IMG/VR virus record: IMGVR_UViG_3300030329_000094
Span: 1-32,422 of that record
DNA: 32,422 bases
Source: a virus
Direction: 5' to 3' (one strand)
The translations under genes and the position numbers were made by a program. The stretch's first letter is position 1, and every line of letters begins with the position of its first letter. Under the pieces are notes generated by a model. It saw only the letters and a list, made by a program, of their open reading frames with translations, was not told the DNA's origin and did no database searches. Shown here piece after piece: positions 5,359-32,422 of this stretch.

Positions 5359-5739
5359 ATGGCTTACAGTGACAAAGTAATGGACCACTATGAAAACCCA
5401 CGGAACGTCGGTAAGATGGACTCAGACGACGAAAGCGTAGGCACAGGTATGGTAGGAGCACCGGCTTGCGGTGACGTTATGAGACTACAGATAAAGGTAG
5501 GAGCCAAGGGCATTATCGAAGACGCTAAGTTTAAGACTTACGGCTGCGGTAGTGCCATTGCGTCTAGTTCACTACTGACTGAGTGGGTTAAGGGCAGGAC
5601 TCTGGAGGAAGCTACGGAAATCAAGAACACAGAGATAGTAGAAGAACTGGCGTTGCCACCAGTGAAGATACACTGTTCTGTGTTAGCTGAAGACGCTATT
5701 AAGGCAGCTATAAAGGACTATTTAGACAAACAAGGTTAA
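5359..5739 (+). CDS. iscU: IscU iron-sulphur cluster scaffold protein
   Basis: A full-length 126-residue IscU, the scaffold on which IscS-derived sulphur and iron are built into [2Fe-2S]/[4Fe-4S] clusters before HscA/HscB-driven transfer. Every functional residue sits at its E. coli number: C37 and D39 (A-C-G-D), C63 (Y-G-C-G-S-A-I-A-S), the HscA recognition motif L-P-P-V-K at 99-103, then H105 and C106. The protein matches the gammaproteobacterial form almost throughout (comparison from memory), pointing to recent capture from a host. It is the last gene of the rightward arm, 4 bases after nrdJ, and its Shine-Dalgarno site is weak. No iscS, iscA, hscB or fdx is present, so it must plug into host machinery. 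Confidence 0.97.
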   Translation: MAYSDKVMDHYENPRNVGKMDSDDESVGTGMVGAPACGDVMRLQIKVGAKGIIEDAKFKTYGCGSAIASSSLLTEWVKGRTLEEATEIKNTEIVEELALPPVKIHCSVLAEDAIKAAIKDYLDKQG

Positions 5740-8725: not shown

Positions 8726-9550
8726 TTATTTACCAAATAGGCCGCCCAAGCTTGCTTCGGCAAGACTAGTGCCAAATCCTCCGGCAACATTAGCCTGAGC
8801 TAAAGCTGACTGCAGCAACGCCTCAAGTCCTGTTGCATAAGTTTCTCCGTACGCCCCTGCTTGTTGTGCCATTGCTTGTCTACGCTGTTCTGCCCCTGTC
8901 ATTCCTGGTTGTAACCCACTTAACAACTGTGCTTGTGGTACGTAACCAGAGGCCAACATACCTGTACCCAACTGTGCCTGTCGTTGTTGCTCCTGTCCTG
9001 CAAACTCCAACGCACTTAACATTGCTCTGTTCTTGGCTTCTTCCTGAGCTTGTGCTAACGCTAGTTGCTCAGGGGTTCCTCCAAACATGGACGTGCGTAC
9101 ACCTAGTCGTCCTTGGTTAGCCAGGCGTTGTTCTAATGCAAGACGCTGACGTTCTTCTTCAGGGGCTTGTGCTGCCCTCATGCGGTTGTATATGTCTTGC
9201 TCACGTTGAGCTGTGTCTGTCTCTGCTAGATCAAAAAACATACCCGCCCTACGTAGCTGTTCTTCCTGTAGGTTCTGTTCGTCAGGAGACGTTTGAATGT
9301 CATACGTCATTTGCCCTGTTTCGGGGTCTTGAGTCATACCAAACTGACCGCCTGTTGCTGTTGTGACGGTGTAGGGCTGAAACGCAAACCTTTCTTCTAG
9401 CTTGTCTGCTAAACTAGGTTCGCCGTCATAACCTTCAGACATACGTTGAAAAGCTTCTCTACCTACTTTACCTACGTCTTCGTACCCTTTAGCAGCTAAA
9501 GCTAGACCAGCAGCGGTCCCTGCTCCTCCTAATAGTTTTTCCCAGTCCAT
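8726..9550 (-). CDS. internal virion protein, Ala/Gln-rich
   Basis: A 274-residue protein with an N-terminal glycine/alanine-rich segment (about 7-22, L-G-G-A-G-T-A-A-G-L-A-L-A-A-K). A long central helix rich in A, Q, R and E follows, and the C-terminal tail is G/A-rich. Such composition is typical of small ejection proteins such as T7 gp14, which enter the outer membrane of the host. It is translationally coupled to a micro-ORF (TAATG overlap at 9548-9552), with GGAGGA before the start. Its base composition is richer in G+C than the next two genes. Confidence 0.65.
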   Translation of the reverse strand: MDWEKLLGGAGTAAGLALAAKGYEDVGKVGREAFQRMSEGYDGEPSLADKLEERFAFQPYTVTTATGGQFGMTQDPETGQMTYDIQTSPDEQNLQEEQLRRAGMFFDLAETDTAQREQDIYNRMRAAQAPEEERQRLALEQRLANQGRLGVRTSMFGGTPEQLALAQAQEEAKNRAMLSALEFAGQEQQRQAQLGTGMLASGYVPQAQLLSGLQPGMTGAEQRRQAMAQQAGAYGETYATGLEALLQSALAQANVAGGFGTSLAEASLGGLFGK

Positions 9551-16534: not shown

Positions 16535-16842
16535 TATTCATCATGCCCCATCATTACCATATTTACGTTTGCGATTGTGGACCTGCCAATAACGTAGTCT
16601 GAAGCTCCACAAACAATCGGAGAGAAGGTCATGCTTTCGTTTACACCTATAAGCGTAGACTCAAGCAACTTCTGACTCGTATCAAAAGTTGCGGAAGAAT
16701 CTCCCACGCCTAACTGAATTTCAGCAGAGCTTGCTCCTCTGTTTAAAATATGAACAGTGTACGTTCCTCCAGAGGAACCTGCCTGTCCTATGTTAGCTGT
16801 CGTATTTGCCGACAGGTTTACTCCTGATATTTTAACTGCCAT
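16534..16842 (-). CDS. small beta-rich fibre-associated protein
   Basis: A 102-residue protein with a beta-sandwich-like composition (T-Y-T-V-H-I-L-N-R-G, A-E-I-Q-L-G-V-G-D, S-M-T-F-S-P-I). Both ends overlap neighbouring genes by TAATG. Proteins of this kind often form fibre connector or decoration subunits. No specific family is recognised. Confidence 0.55.
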   Translation of the reverse strand: MAVKISGVNLSANTTANIGQAGSSGGTYTVHILNRGASSAEIQLGVGDSSATFDTSQKLLESTLIGVNESMTFSPIVCGASDYVIGRSTIANVNMVMMGHDE

Positions 16843-17909
16843 TATAATTGTCCCATGAAGAATACTTTAGATGTAGAGATAGAAGAAACAGTAGCCCAGG
16901 AGGTTACGCCACTTCCGTCAGTTGTTAAAAATTGACCAGCATCTCCATCAGAAGATGGTAATGTTAGTGTAATATCTGCTGTAGAAGCAGGACCAATAAG
17001 AGTTACCTTATTTGTACCATTATCAGAGTCTTCATAAAACTCTATAAAACCAGCAGAAGTAGATCCGTTTTTTAACTGTAGCCCGGTATTAACAACAGGT
17101 GTAGTTAAAGTTTTATTTGTTAAGGTATCTGTTGTCGCTTTACCAACCAGAGTATCAGTTGCGGCGGGTAATGTTAAAGTAACATCAGAAGTTGCCGCAG
17201 GGCCAATAAGAGTTACCTTATTTGTACCGTTGTCTGAGTCTTCATAAAACTCGACGTACCCTGCCGAAGTTGCTCCGTTTTTTAGCAGTAAACCTGCGTT
17301 TATTATGGGAGAAGTAAATTCCGAACCAGGGGACGTTCCTGTTTGTGCTAAAACATAAGCTTTGATAGATTGTTGTGAGGCTAGAGACGTTGCACTATTA
17401 GAAGCCATATTGTCTTCGTCAAGAAACGAAGTAATTCCGTCTAAAATATTCAGTTCTGCTGTGCTGGACGTTACTCCATCTAGTATATTCAGTTCTGCTG
17501 TAGTAGACGTTACTCCATCTAAAATATTTAACTCTGCTGTAGTAGATGTTACTCCGTCTAAAATATTAAGTTCTGCCGTAGTAGACGTAACCCCGTCCAG
17601 TATATTTAACTCTGCTGTAGTAGACGTAACACCGTCAAGAATATTTAACTCTGATGTGTTGGACGTTACTCCGTCGAGAATATTAAGTTCAGCTACGGTA
17701 GACGTAAGTGCAGTTGTTCCGTCATTAAGCGTTCCGTAAGTTAATGTACCAGTAAAAGTAGGTCCAGCAGAATCTGCTTTAGTTGTTATAGCTGTTGCTA
17801 TATTATCAAATTCAGTTTCAAACTCCGAACCTTTAATAATTTTACCACTGTCACCAGACGGTAAACTATCCTTAGCTTCAAAGTCTGTTGTCTTTGTATA
17901 ATTCGACAT
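16842..17909 (-). CDS. tail fibre protein with tandem ELNILDGVTS repeats
   Basis: A 355-residue fibre protein. The N-terminus (Y-T-K-T-T-D-F-E-A-K-D-S-L-P-S-G) resembles the attachment segment of marine podoviral fibres. Seven 13-residue repeats with core E-L-N-I-L-D-G-V-T-S follow at about residues 70-160. A helical linker comes next, then two copies of a roughly 50-residue beta module containing E-F-Y-E-D-S-D-N-G-T-N-K-V-T-L-I-G-P. AAGG precedes the ATG. The repeats probably make a trimeric shaft whose length can vary by recombination. An intrinsic terminator lies between this gene and the major capsid gene, so the fibre block may be under-expressed or read through. Confidence 0.85.
   Translation of the reverse strand: MSNYTKTTDFEAKDSLPSGDSGKIIKGSEFETEFDNIATAITTKADSAGPTFTGTLTYGTLNDGTTALTSTVAELNILDGVTSNTSELNILDGVTSTTAELNILDGVTSTTAELNILDGVTSTTAELNILDGVTSTTAELNILDGVTSSTAELNILDGITSFLDEDNMASNSATSLASQQSIKAYVLAQTGTSPGSEFTSPIINAGLLLKNGATSAGYVEFYEDSDNGTNKVTLIGPAATSDVTLTLPAATDTLVGKATTDTLTNKTLTTPVVNTGLQLKNGSTSAGFIEFYEDSDNGTNKVTLIGPASTADITLTLPSSDGDAGQFLTTDGSGVTSWATVSSISTSKVFFMGQL
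17446..17710 (-). repeat. seven 39-bp tandem repeats in the tail fibre gene
   Basis: Seven copies of a 39-bp unit encode the E-L-N-I-L-D-G-V-T-S shaft repeat. Copies differ mainly at third codon positions, while the protein is nearly constant. This shows selection for the peptide and enough age for synonymous drift. The outermost copies vary most in protein sequence. Confidence 0.85.
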
Positions 17910-24355: not shown

Positions 24356-24706
24356 CTAGTACAACCAGACTACAGGTTTAGTGCCTCTTGTGTCTACATG
24401 GATAAAGTCTTTAGCCACACCAATTCCAGTAAAACCCAGATTTAAGGCTTCTTTAATACAACAGTACCTGTCAGCAGCATTTGTTATTTTTATGTCTGCC
24501 GCTATTCCCTGGGCGTGTGTACCCGGAACTTCTTTAGCAGCCTCTATGGGGTGTTTCGTGGGGTGTCTGTACCCGCTTGTTATTACAAAAGCAAAACCAC
24601 AGGCTAACCTAAGATTGTCCAGTTGTTGTAGAAAATCCTGTTCCATACGATTTTCTCCTGTAACCTGACAGTTAAACTCGTCTAACGAGAAGTGTTTAAG
24701 ATTCAT
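24356..24706 (-). CDS. peptidase M15-type endolysin
   Basis: A 116-residue zinc peptidase of the M15 (D-Ala-D-Ala carboxypeptidase / L-Ala-D-Glu endopeptidase) family. G-Y-R-H-P-T, then G-T-H-A-Q-G-I-A-A-D and a late F-I-H-V-D give the H...D...H zinc site. It has no signal peptide or membrane segment, so release needs the holin. It sits between terS and terL, overlapping terS by 11 bases. It likely cuts peptidoglycan stem peptides during lysis. Confidence 0.88.
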   Translation of the reverse strand: MNLKHFSLDEFNCQVTGENRMEQDFLQQLDNLRLACGFAFVITSGYRHPTKHPIEAAKEVPGTHAQGIAADIKITNAADRYCCIKEALNLGFTGIGVAKDFIHVDTRGTKPVVWLY

Positions 24707-25079
24707 TGATTACTTCTCCTTCGAGTACGTTGTTGTCACTTACGTCTACAGCACCAACACCAGAAATGTTGATTTGTATAGAGTTTCTACCTGCGTCTTT
24801 GATTATTTCTTTTTCAAAAGCACCCACAGGTAACATACGGTCCATTATCAGCTTCCAGGCAGAAGCCTGATTCTTATGTTCGTTGTCCAGGGCAGCGTCA
24901 AAAATTGTTTCCAGTACTTTCCTGGACTTAGGTGAAGCCAGCATCCGGGCTTTGTACTCATTGATAATAGCAGCGTCACCCTTTGGTCTGCCTACTTTAC
25001 CTTTGTTCCCTGGTTTTACAGCAGCAACTTCTGACTTCGGGGGTCTGCCACGACCTCTCTTTTTTATAGCTTCGGTCAT
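24696..25079 (-). CDS. terS: terminase small subunit
   Basis: A 127-residue basic-to-acidic protein at the head of the late arm. Two AT-hook-like motifs (R-G-R-P-P-K near 8-13 and V-G-R-P-K-G near 31-36) should bind the minor groove. A helical middle and an acidic C-terminus follow. Placement before the endolysin and terL supports the small terminase role: recognising phage DNA and loading TerL. A sigma-70 promoter begins 28 bases upstream. Confidence 0.75.
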   Translation of the reverse strand: MTEAIKKRGRGRPPKSEVAAVKPGNKGKVGRPKGDAAIINEYKARMLASPKSRKVLETIFDAALDNEHKNQASAWKLIMDRMLPVGAFEKEIIKDAGRNSIQINISGVGAVDVSDNNVLEGEVINES

Positions 25080-25106: not shown

Positions 25107-25135
25107 AGTATAACATAAGTCTACATAAAAGTCAA
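25107..25135 (-). promoter_or_regulatory. sigma-70 promoter of the late arm
   Basis: On the minus strand, TTGACT (25130-25135), a 17-base spacer and TATACT (25107-25112), with TGT before the -10 (extended -10). The predicted start is near 25100, leaving a leader of about 20 bases to terS with AAAGGGA as ribosome site. Confidence 0.8.
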
Positions 25136-25238
25136 GCTATTTATTTACTAAATGGCCCATAGGGTGTTTCTCGTGTAAAAACAAATGGTTACTTGTGTTT
25201 ATTTTGTGCCTAGTTTTCCTAATTTTAGCCTATTTTGT

Positions 25239-25252
25239 GTACCAGTGGGTAC
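25239..25252. repeat. perfect inverted repeat, possible operator
   Basis: GTACC-AGTG-GGTAC, with 5-bp perfect arms and a 4-base loop, in the control region between the leftward sigma-54 pair and the leftward sigma-70 promoter. It could be an operator or an RNA hairpin in the leader of sigma-54 transcripts. Confidence 0.4.
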
Positions 25253-25290
25253 TACAATATTAATAATAGTAAACCACGGCCCCCGCCCCA

Positions 25291-25307
25291 TGCAAAAATC
25301 ATGCCAA
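25291..25307 (-). promoter_or_regulatory. sigma-54 promoter element, leftward 1
   Basis: The minus strand reads TTGGCATGATTTTTGCA, matching the -24/-12 consensus YTGGCACG-N4-TTGCW with one change (C to T). It faces the terminase genes, about 210 bases before terS. Confidence 0.72.
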
Positions 25308-25334: not shown

Positions 25335-25391
25335 GGTTGCGCCATTGGTTGCGATGATGATGCAACATTCGTTTAACTTATGGCCCCAAAG

Positions 25392-25408
25392 TTGGCACGA
25401 GTCTTGCA
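25392..25408 (+). promoter_or_regulatory. sigma-54 promoter element, rightward 1
   Basis: TTGGCACGAGTCTTGCA, a full match to the -24/-12 consensus with the required GG and GC and the right spacing. It lies at the end of repeat unit A. Confidence 0.78.
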
Positions 25409-25468
25409 TGGGAAGCACCATTGGCTGCGTTTATGGTGCAACATTTGTTAGGCTTATGGCTCCCAAAG

Positions 25469-25485
25469 TTGGCACGAGTTTTGCA
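25469..25485 (+). promoter_or_regulatory. sigma-54 promoter element, rightward 2
   Basis: TTGGCACGAGTTTTGCA, a full consensus match 77 bases after element 1, at the end of repeat unit B. The unit B inverted repeat lies 30-54 bases upstream. Confidence 0.78.
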
Positions 25486-25502
25486 TAAGGAGCCGTCTCA
25501 AG

Positions 25503-25519
25503 TTGGCACGAGTCTTGCA
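25503..25519 (+). promoter_or_regulatory. sigma-54 promoter element, rightward 3
   Basis: TTGGCACGAGTCTTGCA, identical to element 1 and 34 bases after element 2. Confidence 0.78.
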
Positions 25520-25537
25520 TGAGGTGACCTCCTAAAG

Positions 25538-25554
25538 TTGGCATGGGTTTTGCA
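25538..25554 (+). promoter_or_regulatory. sigma-54 promoter element, rightward 4
   Basis: TTGGCATGGGTTTTGCA, 35 bases after element 3. It differs from consensus by C to T in the -24 box; GG and GC are intact. Confidence 0.72.
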
Positions 25555-25574
25555 TGAGTCCTGGAATCGCAAAG

Positions 25575-25591
25575 TTGGCATGGGTTTTGCA
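25575..25591 (+). promoter_or_regulatory. sigma-54 promoter element, rightward 5
   Basis: TTGGCATGGGTTTTGCA, identical to element 4 and 37 bases after it. Confidence 0.72.
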
Positions 25592-25607
25592 TAGGTAGCT
25601 CCCAGAG

Positions 25608-25624
25608 TTGGCACGAGTTTTAAC
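25608..25624 (+). promoter_or_regulatory. degenerate sigma-54 element, rightward 6
   Basis: TTGGCACGAGTTTTAAC keeps a perfect -24 box, but the -12 GC is lost. It is 33 bases after element 5 and the last copy of the array, so probably inactive as a promoter. Confidence 0.5.
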
Positions 25625-25759: not shown

Positions 25760-26167
25760 ATGTTAGAAGCAATAAAATCATTTGAACAGAAAGATAATTT
25801 GAACCAAAAACACAGAAAAGATAATTACTTTCACAGGCAACTAGAAGCGATAGACACGGAAGGGAATTCGATCTTGACCCTTAGAACATATCACACAGGA
25901 AAAAGGGTATATGCCTGTCTATGGGTTAGCATCAGCCTTAACAATGGGGACATGGCCTACGGATCAGGTTGGGCTGGTGGCTATGGCTACTGTAAAGAGT
26001 CAACAGCCTGTGAAGAAGCATTGATGTCAGCAGGGATCGAACTGCAAAAAAGCATTGCAGGTAAGGGAATGGGCACGGTTCAAGAAGCTATTGAGGGAGT
26101 CGCTAGGGATCTATTGAAGCTCAAAGGCAACGGCAAATTTTTAACGCTAACCTACGCAAACGCATAA
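25760..26167 (+). CDS. first gene of the rightward arm, unknown function
   Basis: A 135-residue protein. The start has AGAGAGAAG upstream. A central G-S-G-W-A-G-G-Y-G-Y-C-K-E-S-T-A-C-E-E-A-L motif (about 68-90) and a following helix with S-A-G-I-E-L occur in hypothetical proteins of many phages and plasmids of Proteobacteria (from memory), without assigned role. Being the first gene after the sigma-54 array, it should be made early and strongly if the array is active. Host takeover or DNA-related function is only inference. Confidence 0.7.
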   Translation: MLEAIKSFEQKDNLNQKHRKDNYFHRQLEAIDTEGNSILTLRTYHTGKRVYACLWVSISLNNGDMAYGSGWAGGYGYCKESTACEEALMSAGIELQKSIAGKGMGTVQEAIEGVARDLLKLKGNGKFLTLTYANA

Positions 26168-26411: not shown

Positions 26412-27230
26412 ATGGACAAACTAAACGTATTAAGTTGTTTCGACGGTATGTCTTGCGGTCAGATAGCGTTAGACCGATTGAGGATACCAGTTAATAAATA
26501 TTTTGCGTCTGAGATAGACAAATACGCAACTCAGACCACACAGAAAAATTTTCCTAATACTGTGCAACTAGGGTCGATAACAGATATTCCTAGTGAGTCA
26601 ACAATTAACGGCCACAAAATAGACCTATTGATCGGAGGGTCACCTTGTCAAGGGTTTTCATTTGCAGGTAAGCAGTTAAATTTTGATGATCCACGTTCAA
26701 AACTTTTCTTTGACTTTGTGCGACTAAAGAACAGTCTAAAGCCTAAATATTTTTTGCTTGAGAATGTCAAGATGAAGAAAGAATCGGAAGACATAATCAC
26801 CGAAATACTAGGAGTCGAACCAATCGAAATAAACAGCCGGCTAGTGTCGGCACAGAACCGAAAGAGATTATTTTGGACTAACATACCTTTTAGCGGTAAA
26901 CAGCCAGAAGACAAGCAAATACTGCTTAAGGACATCCTAGAAGACGACAGTGTGACCGATAGGGACAAAAGCCATTGTTTAGACGCTAACTACTTCAAAG
27001 GAGGAAATCTGAAGTCTTACTTCGAGAAAAACCGAAGACAGATAGTTTTTAATTGTGAGCCAAAATCTAATAGTCTACATTGGCGAAAACTAACGCCTTT
27101 AGAATGCGAAAGACTCCAGACAGTACCAGAAGGATACACAGAAGGAGTGTCCAACACGCAACGATACAGGATGCTAGGGAATGGCTGGACAGTGGACGTT
27201 ATTTGTCACATAATGGAGGGTCTAAAATAA
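26412..27230 (+). CDS. orphan DNA cytosine-C5 methyltransferase
   Basis: A 272-residue C5 methyltransferase. Motif I is S-C-F-D-G-M-S-C-G-Q (8-17, a variant of FxGxGG). The catalytic P-C-Q has C79, motif VI is E-N-V, motif VIII is Q-N-R-K-R-L-F-W, and a late R-K-L-T-P-L-E-C-E-R-L-Q and R-M-L-G-N-G-W give motifs IX and X. The target-recognition region is short. No restriction enzyme is near, so it probably protects phage DNA against host restriction or modifies host promoters. AGGAGAG precedes the ATG. It appears complete. Confidence 0.93.
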   Translation: MDKLNVLSCFDGMSCGQIALDRLRIPVNKYFASEIDKYATQTTQKNFPNTVQLGSITDIPSESTINGHKIDLLIGGSPCQGFSFAGKQLNFDDPRSKLFFDFVRLKNSLKPKYFLLENVKMKKESEDIITEILGVEPIEINSRLVSAQNRKRLFWTNIPFSGKQPEDKQILLKDILEDDSVTDRDKSHCLDANYFKGGNLKSYFEKNRRQIVFNCEPKSNSLHWRKLTPLECERLQTVPEGYTEGVSNTQRYRMLGNGWTVDVICHIMEGLK

Positions 27231-31871: not shown

Positions 31872-32422
31872 TTTATCTTGACTTAGAATCCGACGGCCTG
31901 GACCCCACACGTATCTGGTGTGTTGTGACAAGGGAAAACGGAGTAAACCAGATACACACTAGCCCAGAAACCCTCTCAGAAGCCCTCAGAAGCTCTGTGA
32001 GCGTAGTTGGACACAACTTGATAGGATACGACCTACCAGTGCTAAATCGTCTCTGGGGGCTTTCTGTTGAGTCTGAGAGGATTATTGATACGCTAGTGTT
32101 GTCACGTCTGGCTGACCCAAGCAAGTCCGGAGGACACTCCCTGAGGAACTGGGGTAATGAGTTAGGCTTTCCGAAAGGAGACCATAATGACTGGACCTGC
32201 CTGAGTGCAGACATGATCAAGTACTGCATACGTGACGTGGAACTTACCGAAGCAGTACACCAGAAGCTTATGAAGGACATGGCATGTTTTTCAACAGCTT
32301 CTGTAGACTTGGAACATCAGGTGCAGTTCATAACGAACCAACAGGAGAAAAACGGTTGGACTTTAAATCAACAATTAGCACATGAGTTGTGTGCTACATT
32401 TAAGGAGAGAATGAATGTTATC
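31868..32422 (+). CDS. polA: DNA polymerase I family A, N-terminal part (3'-5' exonuclease domain); continues at position 1
   Basis: This is the 5' part of the phage replicative DNA polymerase. The frame opens with a TTG overlapping the stop of the primase-helicase gene and encodes M-I-Y-L-D-L-E-S-D-G-L. D5 and E7 are the Exo I acidic pair. A later H-N-L-I-G-Y-D matches Exo II, and Y-C-I-R-D-V-E matches Exo III, so a proofreading exonuclease of the DnaQ fold is seen directly. The frame is open to the window end. The last 27 bases repeat positions 1-27 in the same phase, so the gene continues with the polymerase domain at the left edge, for about 544 residues in total. The TTG start is inferred from the overlap and from the position of the Exo I motif; no ATG lies upstream of that motif in frame. 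Confidence 0.93.
   Translation, partial: MIYLDLESDGLDPTRIWCVVTRENGVNQIHTSPETLSEALRSSVSVVGHNLIGYDLPVLNRLWGLSVESERIIDTLVLSRLADPSKSGGHSLRNWGNELGFPKGDHNDWTCLSADMIKYCIRDVELTEAVHQKLMKDMACFSTASVDLEHQVQFITNQQEKNGWTLNQQLAHELCATFKERMNVI

Follow-up and report, generated by a model that had tools for sequence, protein, structure and literature searches.

What does a cluster of sigma-54-type promoter sequences do in the genome of an uncultured phage: does it dock the RpoN polymerase of the host and start transcripts, does it serve replication, or does it do something else? The question was addressed for the window, by which we mean the whole stretch of 32,422 nucleotides that was analysed. The window represents a whole phage genome of about 32.4 kb as a circular map, its ends overlapping by 27 bp (positions 1-27 and 32396-32422). 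A DNA polymerase gene spans the junction of its ends, and the record is classed without end repeats.

Gene arms and the divergent control region

Two gene arms diverge at about 25.1-25.7 kb, in the single divergent control region of the window. The leftward arm contains a putative small terminase, an endolysin-like protein, the large terminase, the portal, the capsid, and the tail genes. The rightward arm encodes a methyltransferase, ThyX, an SSB-like (gp2.5-like) protein, a primase-helicase, a PolA-type DNA polymerase, a ribonucleotide reductase (RNR), and NifU. The original prediction had spoken of a lytic podovirus; this label is not established, the gene content merely resembling that of HMO-2011-type phages. 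The following features border the control region:

24696..25079, - strand: first leftward gene, putative small terminase (AT-hook match; small-terminase role suggested by position)
25107..25135, - strand: sigma-70-type promoter TTGACT-17-TATACT before the first leftward gene (10/12 consensus bases, TG before the -10 element)
25760..26167, + strand: first rightward gene, PHROG 7028 (a family without assigned function)

The sigma-70-type promoter is kept in relatives. Protein searches of the window found no phage RNA polymerase, and a T7-type search was also silent, as was its control. Neither Rfam nor tRNA searches gave a match in the window.

Further observations concern individual genes of the window. 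A NifU-like Fe-S scaffold gene (5359-5739) lies directly 3' of the ribonucleotide reductase gene, and a structural protein (16842-17909) is built with repeated TSTTAELNILDGV units. The DNA cytosine methyltransferase gene (26412-27230) has 74% nucleotide identity to Roseobacter phage CRP-9, which is the only strong DNA match to a cultured phage within 20.5-28.4 kb of the window.

Sigma-54-type sites on both strands

Seven perfect matches to the -24/-12 consensus TTGGCAYG-N4-TTGCA were found in the control region, five rightward and two leftward, compared with about 0.002 exact matches expected on both strands of the whole window:

25291..25307, - strand: leftward sigma-54-type site L1, TTGGCATGATTTTTGCA, 0 mismatches; identical in L008 and L260
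25318..25334, - strand: leftward sigma-54-type site L2, TTGGCATGATTCTTGCA, 0 mismatches; identical in L008 and L260
25392..25408, + strand: sigma-54-type site R1, TTGGCACGAGTCTTGCA, 0 mismatches to TTGGCAYG-N4-TTGCA
25469..25485, + strand: sigma-54-type site R2, TTGGCACGAGTTTTGCA, 0 mismatches
25503..25519, + strand: sigma-54-type site R3, TTGGCACGAGTCTTGCA, 0 mismatches; conserved in L097 and L260
25538..25554, + strand: sigma-54-type site R4, TTGGCATGGGTTTTGCA, 0 mismatches
25575..25591, + strand: sigma-54-type site R5, TTGGCATGGGTTTTGCA, 0 mismatches
25608..25624, + strand: sixth copy with the -12 element lost, TTGGCACGAGTTTTAAC; otherwise broken in L097 and L260

The five exact rightward copies of the original prediction (+ strand, starting at 25392, 25469, 25503, 25538, and 25575) were all recovered without mismatch, together with the sixth copy at 25608 that lacks its -12 element, and the start spacings of 77, 34, 35, 37, and 33 were reproduced. 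The near-constancy claimed for the spacer and the upstream bases was likewise seen: AAG before the motif is invariant, and N4 reads AGTC, AGTT, or GGTT. Growth of the array by duplication is supported, and the close relative L260 has one more unit of ~34 bp. The sixth site is decayed in the window, in L260 (TTAC for TTGC), and in L097 (GG to GA), each by a different change. The description of the array as rightward holds for the five sites but was incomplete, two perfect leftward sites having been missed. These leftward sites face the structural genes, the window array is divergent, and orientations alternate in relatives.

All seven perfect sites have GG at -24, GC at -12, and the exact TGGCAY-N5-TTGC spacing. 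The scan of both strands of the whole genome with the -24/-12 consensus, which had been suggested as a check, yielded no good site outside the array region. A candidate at 8759-8775 (-) was rejected as chance: with 2 mismatches, it deviates at two positions whose fixation in viral arrays is 94-98%, and it falls inside a coding frame.

Distribution of arrays in viruses and bacteria

IMG/VR was scanned with the criterion of three tandem copies of TGGCAY-N5-TTGC. Tandem arrays occurred in at least 120 stretches, compared with 2 for the reversed-motif control, and nearly all motif matches fell inside arrays when whole records were scanned. Together with the window, the viral loci among the matches listed form 49 groups at 50% protein identity linkage and 25 at 30%, which rules out the array as the mark of one phage family; the largest linkage group among the matches listed comprises 55 loci, the window included. 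Divergent gaps hold 36 of the 40 non-redundant arrays for which both flanks were classed, by crude gene calling. A comparison of the array region with INPHARED by DNA similarity gave chance matches only, no array was present in the 8 cultured phages scanned whole, and a query with the early genes found no close relatives.

Only 38 stretches matched in 84,980 bacterial and archaeal species genomes (GTDB). Simple repeats that lack the secondary consensus account for most of these, and only a small number appear genuine. Every bacterial genome with a genuine array encodes RpoN (7/7), which is weak evidence because roughly 80% of surveyed bacteria do so (PMC12316311). In Anaerolineales (Chloroflexota) MAGs, triple tandem sigma-54 sites lie directly upstream of rpoN (L226:5805-5901 and L246:1995-2076), which suggests autoregulation of rpoN through the array. 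Six sigma-54-type sites were also seen in a Methylococcaceae MAG (L233:5281-5484), in an element with an integrase and a D5/NrS-1-type primase that adjoins a phenylalanyl-tRNA synthetase gene and is possibly an array-carrying phage satellite. The remaining genuine-looking GTDB arrays probably include misbinned viral contigs.

Sequence signature and likely reader of the sites

Positions left free by the search were examined in 548 non-redundant viral array sites. They follow mrNrYTGGCACG-N4-TTGCW, which is the full sigma-54 consensus: a purine follows CAY in 98% of the sites, A or T follows TTGC in 94%, a pyrimidine precedes TGG in 81%, and purines are preferred at two upstream positions. This secondary consensus of the viral sites is missing from the tandem matches in bacterial genomes. 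A spacing of 5 dominates near viral arrays (651 cases). In one-mismatch sites near arrays, the change almost never falls on GG or the final TGC and is accepted at the first T, at C (to T), at A, and at the first T of TTGC. Tolerance of change at those positions is the known pattern of sigma-54 promoters. Between relatives, core bases change in 5/170 cases versus 53/427 for inter-site DNA (P=2e-4, pairs not independent), about four times less.

The consensus at free positions, the invariance of GG and GC, the fixed spacing, and the selection on core bases strongly support the sigma-54 identity that was originally proposed. The sequence evidence supports reading the sites as sigma-54-type, under selection, bidirectional, and present in many viral lineages. 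Among 12 array genomes that are complete or nearly so, no protein family is found in more than 6, and neither a sigma-54 DNA-binding domain nor a clear enhancer-binding activator was found in 40 array-carrying records. Because the array genomes share no protein family and show no phage sigma-54 or clear activator, a host factor is the likeliest reader, and the binder is most likely the host RpoN holoenzyme. The sole activator match above the cut-off, G031, was rejected as a MoxR/CobS-like AAA ATPase without GAFTGA.

Neighbouring elements and a possible origin

The sites are accompanied by the following elements of the control region:

25218..25256, - strand: conserved non-coding core GTAGTACCCACTGGTACACAAAATAGGCTAAAATTAGG, its columns around CACAAAA near-invariant across 10 relatives whose arrays differ
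25278..25289, - strand: G-tract, GGGGCGGGGGCC on the - strand, immediately downstream of the leftward sites; aligned in relatives
25339..25363, no strand: imperfect second dyad copy GCGCCAT-N11-ATGATGC, within the 72-nt repeat D2
25415..25439, no strand: perfect dyad GCACCAT-N11-ATGGTGC, arms 7/7 complementary; fully conserved in L260

The perfect dyad is a candidate site for an activator (enhancer) or another regulator. It is also readable as GCACC-N15-GGTGC, which is NtrC-like; the spacer of an NtrC site is N5. In L026 (3660-3830, - strand), another dyad, CACATGGGCCAACATGTG, follows sigma-54-type sites, together with TTGACA, and may be a lineage-specific regulator site. The core at 25218..25256 is a candidate origin core. 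The G-tract is present in relatives with sigma-54 arrays, with DnaA arrays, or with neither, and the unit of G-tract plus AT-rich core (window 25218-25289, CACAAAATAGG..AAAATTAGG) is kept in relatives whichever array they carry.

All members of the window's clade, defined by terminase relatedness, carry arrays (10/10). The array is not indispensable to the family, because many other terminase relatives with the same structural genes go without it. The terminase is identical between L015 and L016, and their DNA right of the slot agrees at 97%; the slot itself holds three sigma-54-type sites in L016 and ten DnaA boxes in L015. Many of the L015 boxes are 11 bp apart, and the last lies about 10 bp before the shared G-tract. 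Another six relatives carry 5-11 DnaA boxes at this position. Box arrays of this size (TTATNCACA), with many intervals of exactly 11 bp, were noted at L015:1590-1790 and in L014, L017, L020, L028, L033, and L035; beside the G-tract in close relatives of the window, such arrays look like an oriC-type phage origin.

No DnaA box was found in the 1.7-kb region of the window. Near sigma-54-type arrays, 19 DnaA boxes were counted in the window's family versus 0.8 expected, and 8 versus 1.3 in other lineages, the latter mostly from two arrays. No sampled locus with two or more sigma-54 sites has five or more DnaA boxes, which is a statement on small numbers. Strict exclusion between the two array types is not claimed; several DnaA-type loci keep one sigma-54-type site. 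The cumulative GC skew has its minimum at ~25 kb, at the slot, where gene direction is a confounder. In view of the DnaA-box arrays that relatives have in this slot, it was read as probably lying at or in a replication origin, and we put the chances at about even that the region is a phage replication origin besides being a divergent promoter region. The original prediction had named a replication element as the alternative that would overturn it. This alternative has real support in the DnaA-box array that occupies the slot of a sister phage, and it is compatible with a promoter reading, for instance if promoters activate the origin.

Proposed mechanism

The reading that we favour, with a probability of roughly 0.6, is that the region is a docking site for host sigma-54 and a bidirectional promoter array, with or without a role as origin. 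Judged from the sites themselves, it is highly probable that they are bound by the host sigma-54 polymerase and reasonably likely that they initiate transcripts during infection; a contribution of sigma-54 transcription to replication is doubtful. Host E-sigma54 would dock on the array as closed complexes, to be opened by an active host enhancer-binding ATPase, possibly from the conserved dyad at 25415-25439. Rightward transcripts would then run into the early/replication arm, and leftward transcripts would cross the G-tract and the core toward the structural arm. By analogy with the T7 primary origin, transcription through the core might help to open or prime the origin. Sigma-54 works only together with a signal-driven ATPase, so that the nitrogen, membrane-stress, or motility state of the host could be linked to infection. 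A shade more doubtful still is a wider proposal, according to which many uncultured phages would fire their origin with the host sigma-54 polymerase, a bidirectional sigma-54 promoter array and DnaA boxes would interchange in a plug-in origin slot, and replication and early transcription would be gated by host stress/nitrogen enhancer-binding proteins.

Several observations count against the sigma-54 promoter-array reading. A sigma-70 promoter is already present before the structural genes, no activator gene was detected in the phage, and the array is missing from many structural-gene relatives. The main observation that the reading leaves unexplained, which also counts against it, is the fixed tight geometry of the sites. 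In other lineages (L089-L207 arrays), neighbouring sites are separated by 32-36 bp when convergent and by 8-12 or 17-21 bp when divergent, and tandem neighbours are 25-29 or 36-43 bp apart. Convergent pairs often leave just 2-6 bp between their facing -12 elements. Such neighbours are tighter than independent promoters need and too close for simultaneous occupancy by polymerase, and we know of no promoter rule that explains the fixed convergent and divergent distances. This geometry might stem from cooperative assembly, from mutual exclusion, or from a function of the sites as an origin-binding array.

Alternative explanations

The regular convergent and divergent geometry would also suit origin iterons, that is, repeats that bind a phage or host replication initiator with a preference for a sigma-54-like sequence and whose job is not transcription. 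Such a function would agree with the DnaA-box arrays that fill the same slot in relatives, one of which has an identical terminase and 97% flank identity, with the excess of DnaA boxes around sigma-54-type arrays, both in the family of the window and in other lineages (19 vs 0.8 and 8 vs 1.3 expected, the latter mostly from two arrays), and with the position of the array next to the conserved G-tract and core, where the GC-skew minimum, confounded by gene direction, is found. However, the motif is asymmetric, carries the sigma-54 consensus at free positions, and has invariant GG and GC, and no phage protein is common to the array carriers; we consider the iteron explanation unlikely. A different role for bound polymerase is suggested by E-sigma54 itself, which is inactive when it binds DNA; in E. 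coli, the majority of its sites stay silent under any one condition (PMC4591121). E-sigma54 on the phage array could mostly stay closed and act as a sponge that titrates the host regulon, or as a roadblock that silences neighbouring promoters until a signal arrives. The failure to find a phage activator and the fact that some site geometries forbid simultaneous use of adjacent sites are in line with this. A sponge, however, has no need for a position at the divergent junction or for orientation toward both arms, and a roadblock effect was not found at intragenic sigma-54 sites (PMC4591121), so that sponge and roadblock together appear quite unlikely.

That the arrays are largely a virus phenomenon would fit recognition by a transcription factor that the phage encodes, sigma-54-like or of another kind. 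This is very improbable, given that the 40 array records contain no sigma-54 DNA-binding domain, from which search a very divergent binder could escape, and that the 12 array genomes have no protein family in common. The last alternative is chance or a functionless simple repeat, to which the difference in copy number between close relatives and the one decayed copy could point. It is refuted by the control scans, in agreement with the original claim that the array is not due to chance: 0.002 exact sites were expected, the reversed control gave 2 versus at least 120, core bases are conserved relative to inter-site DNA, and one consensus recurs across many unrelated lineages. The probability left to it is practically negligible.

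Significance and comparison with known systems

The recurrence of dense bidirectional arrays in dozens of viral groups suggests that environmental phages commonly make host sigma-54 their entry point, which had gone unnoticed; these phages may use the stress-linked sigma-54 polymerase for starting genes, for replication, or for both. The interchange of sigma-54 sites and DnaA boxes would amount to a natural experiment on the host functions that a phage origin requires; as a simple sequence marker, the motif may predict rpoN+ hosts of uncultured viruses. Text searches of the open-access literature, which include few subscription papers and preprints, turned up no account of phage arrays of sigma-54 promoters.

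Bacterial sigma-54 (RpoN) promoters have the same consensus as the viral array sites, including the secondary positions, the GG and GC pairs, and the spacing. They are normally single, and the 84,980 species genomes contain very few triple tandem arrays that are genuine. The oriC-type DnaA-box arrays of the relatives L014, L015, L017, L033, and L035 share the slot, the G-tract, and the core with the window; unlike these relatives, the window fills the slot with sigma-54-type sites and lacks DnaA boxes throughout the 1.7-kb region. The primary origin of T7 consists of tandem phage promoters followed by AT-rich DNA. The window is T7-like in its tandem promoter-type sites beside an AT-rich block and in its PolA-type polymerase, primase-helicase, and gp2.5-like SSB. 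No phage RNA polymerase was found in the window, and therefore the host polymerase would do the part of the T7 polymerase.

Among cultured phages, the HMO-2011 type (HMO-2011, HTVC115P, CRP-235) shares opposed early and structural arms, PolA, and RNR with the window. The window DNA polymerase is 56% identical to that of HTVC103P, whereas the portal is only ~23% identical to the HMO-2011-type group. Unlike the window, the records of HMO-2011, HTVC115P, and CRP-235 have no array (3/3). The terminase of the array-less Pelagibacter phage HTVC115P has 65% identity to its counterpart in the array group L166. SAR11, the host group of HTVC115P, reportedly has two sigma factors only and no sigma-54 (PMC13198564).

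Pseudomonas phage YuA (Yuavirus) is reported to be strictly dependent on host sigma-54, in a text that calls such use by phages rare (PMC5053324). The YuA record AM749441 resembles the window in that three promoters are annotated as '-24/-12 consensus', with high reporter activity. Unlike the sites of the window array, the YuA promoters are single, dispersed among structural genes, and without a link to an origin. The sequence TGGYAY-N5-TTGCW is absent from the YuA genome, which, in contrast to the window, has no array and no strong consensus. Sigma-54-dependent phage transcription has YuA as its precedent; what seems new is the form that it takes in dense bidirectional sigma-54 arrays at a probable origin, and a role of these arrays in the origin would be the most novel part.
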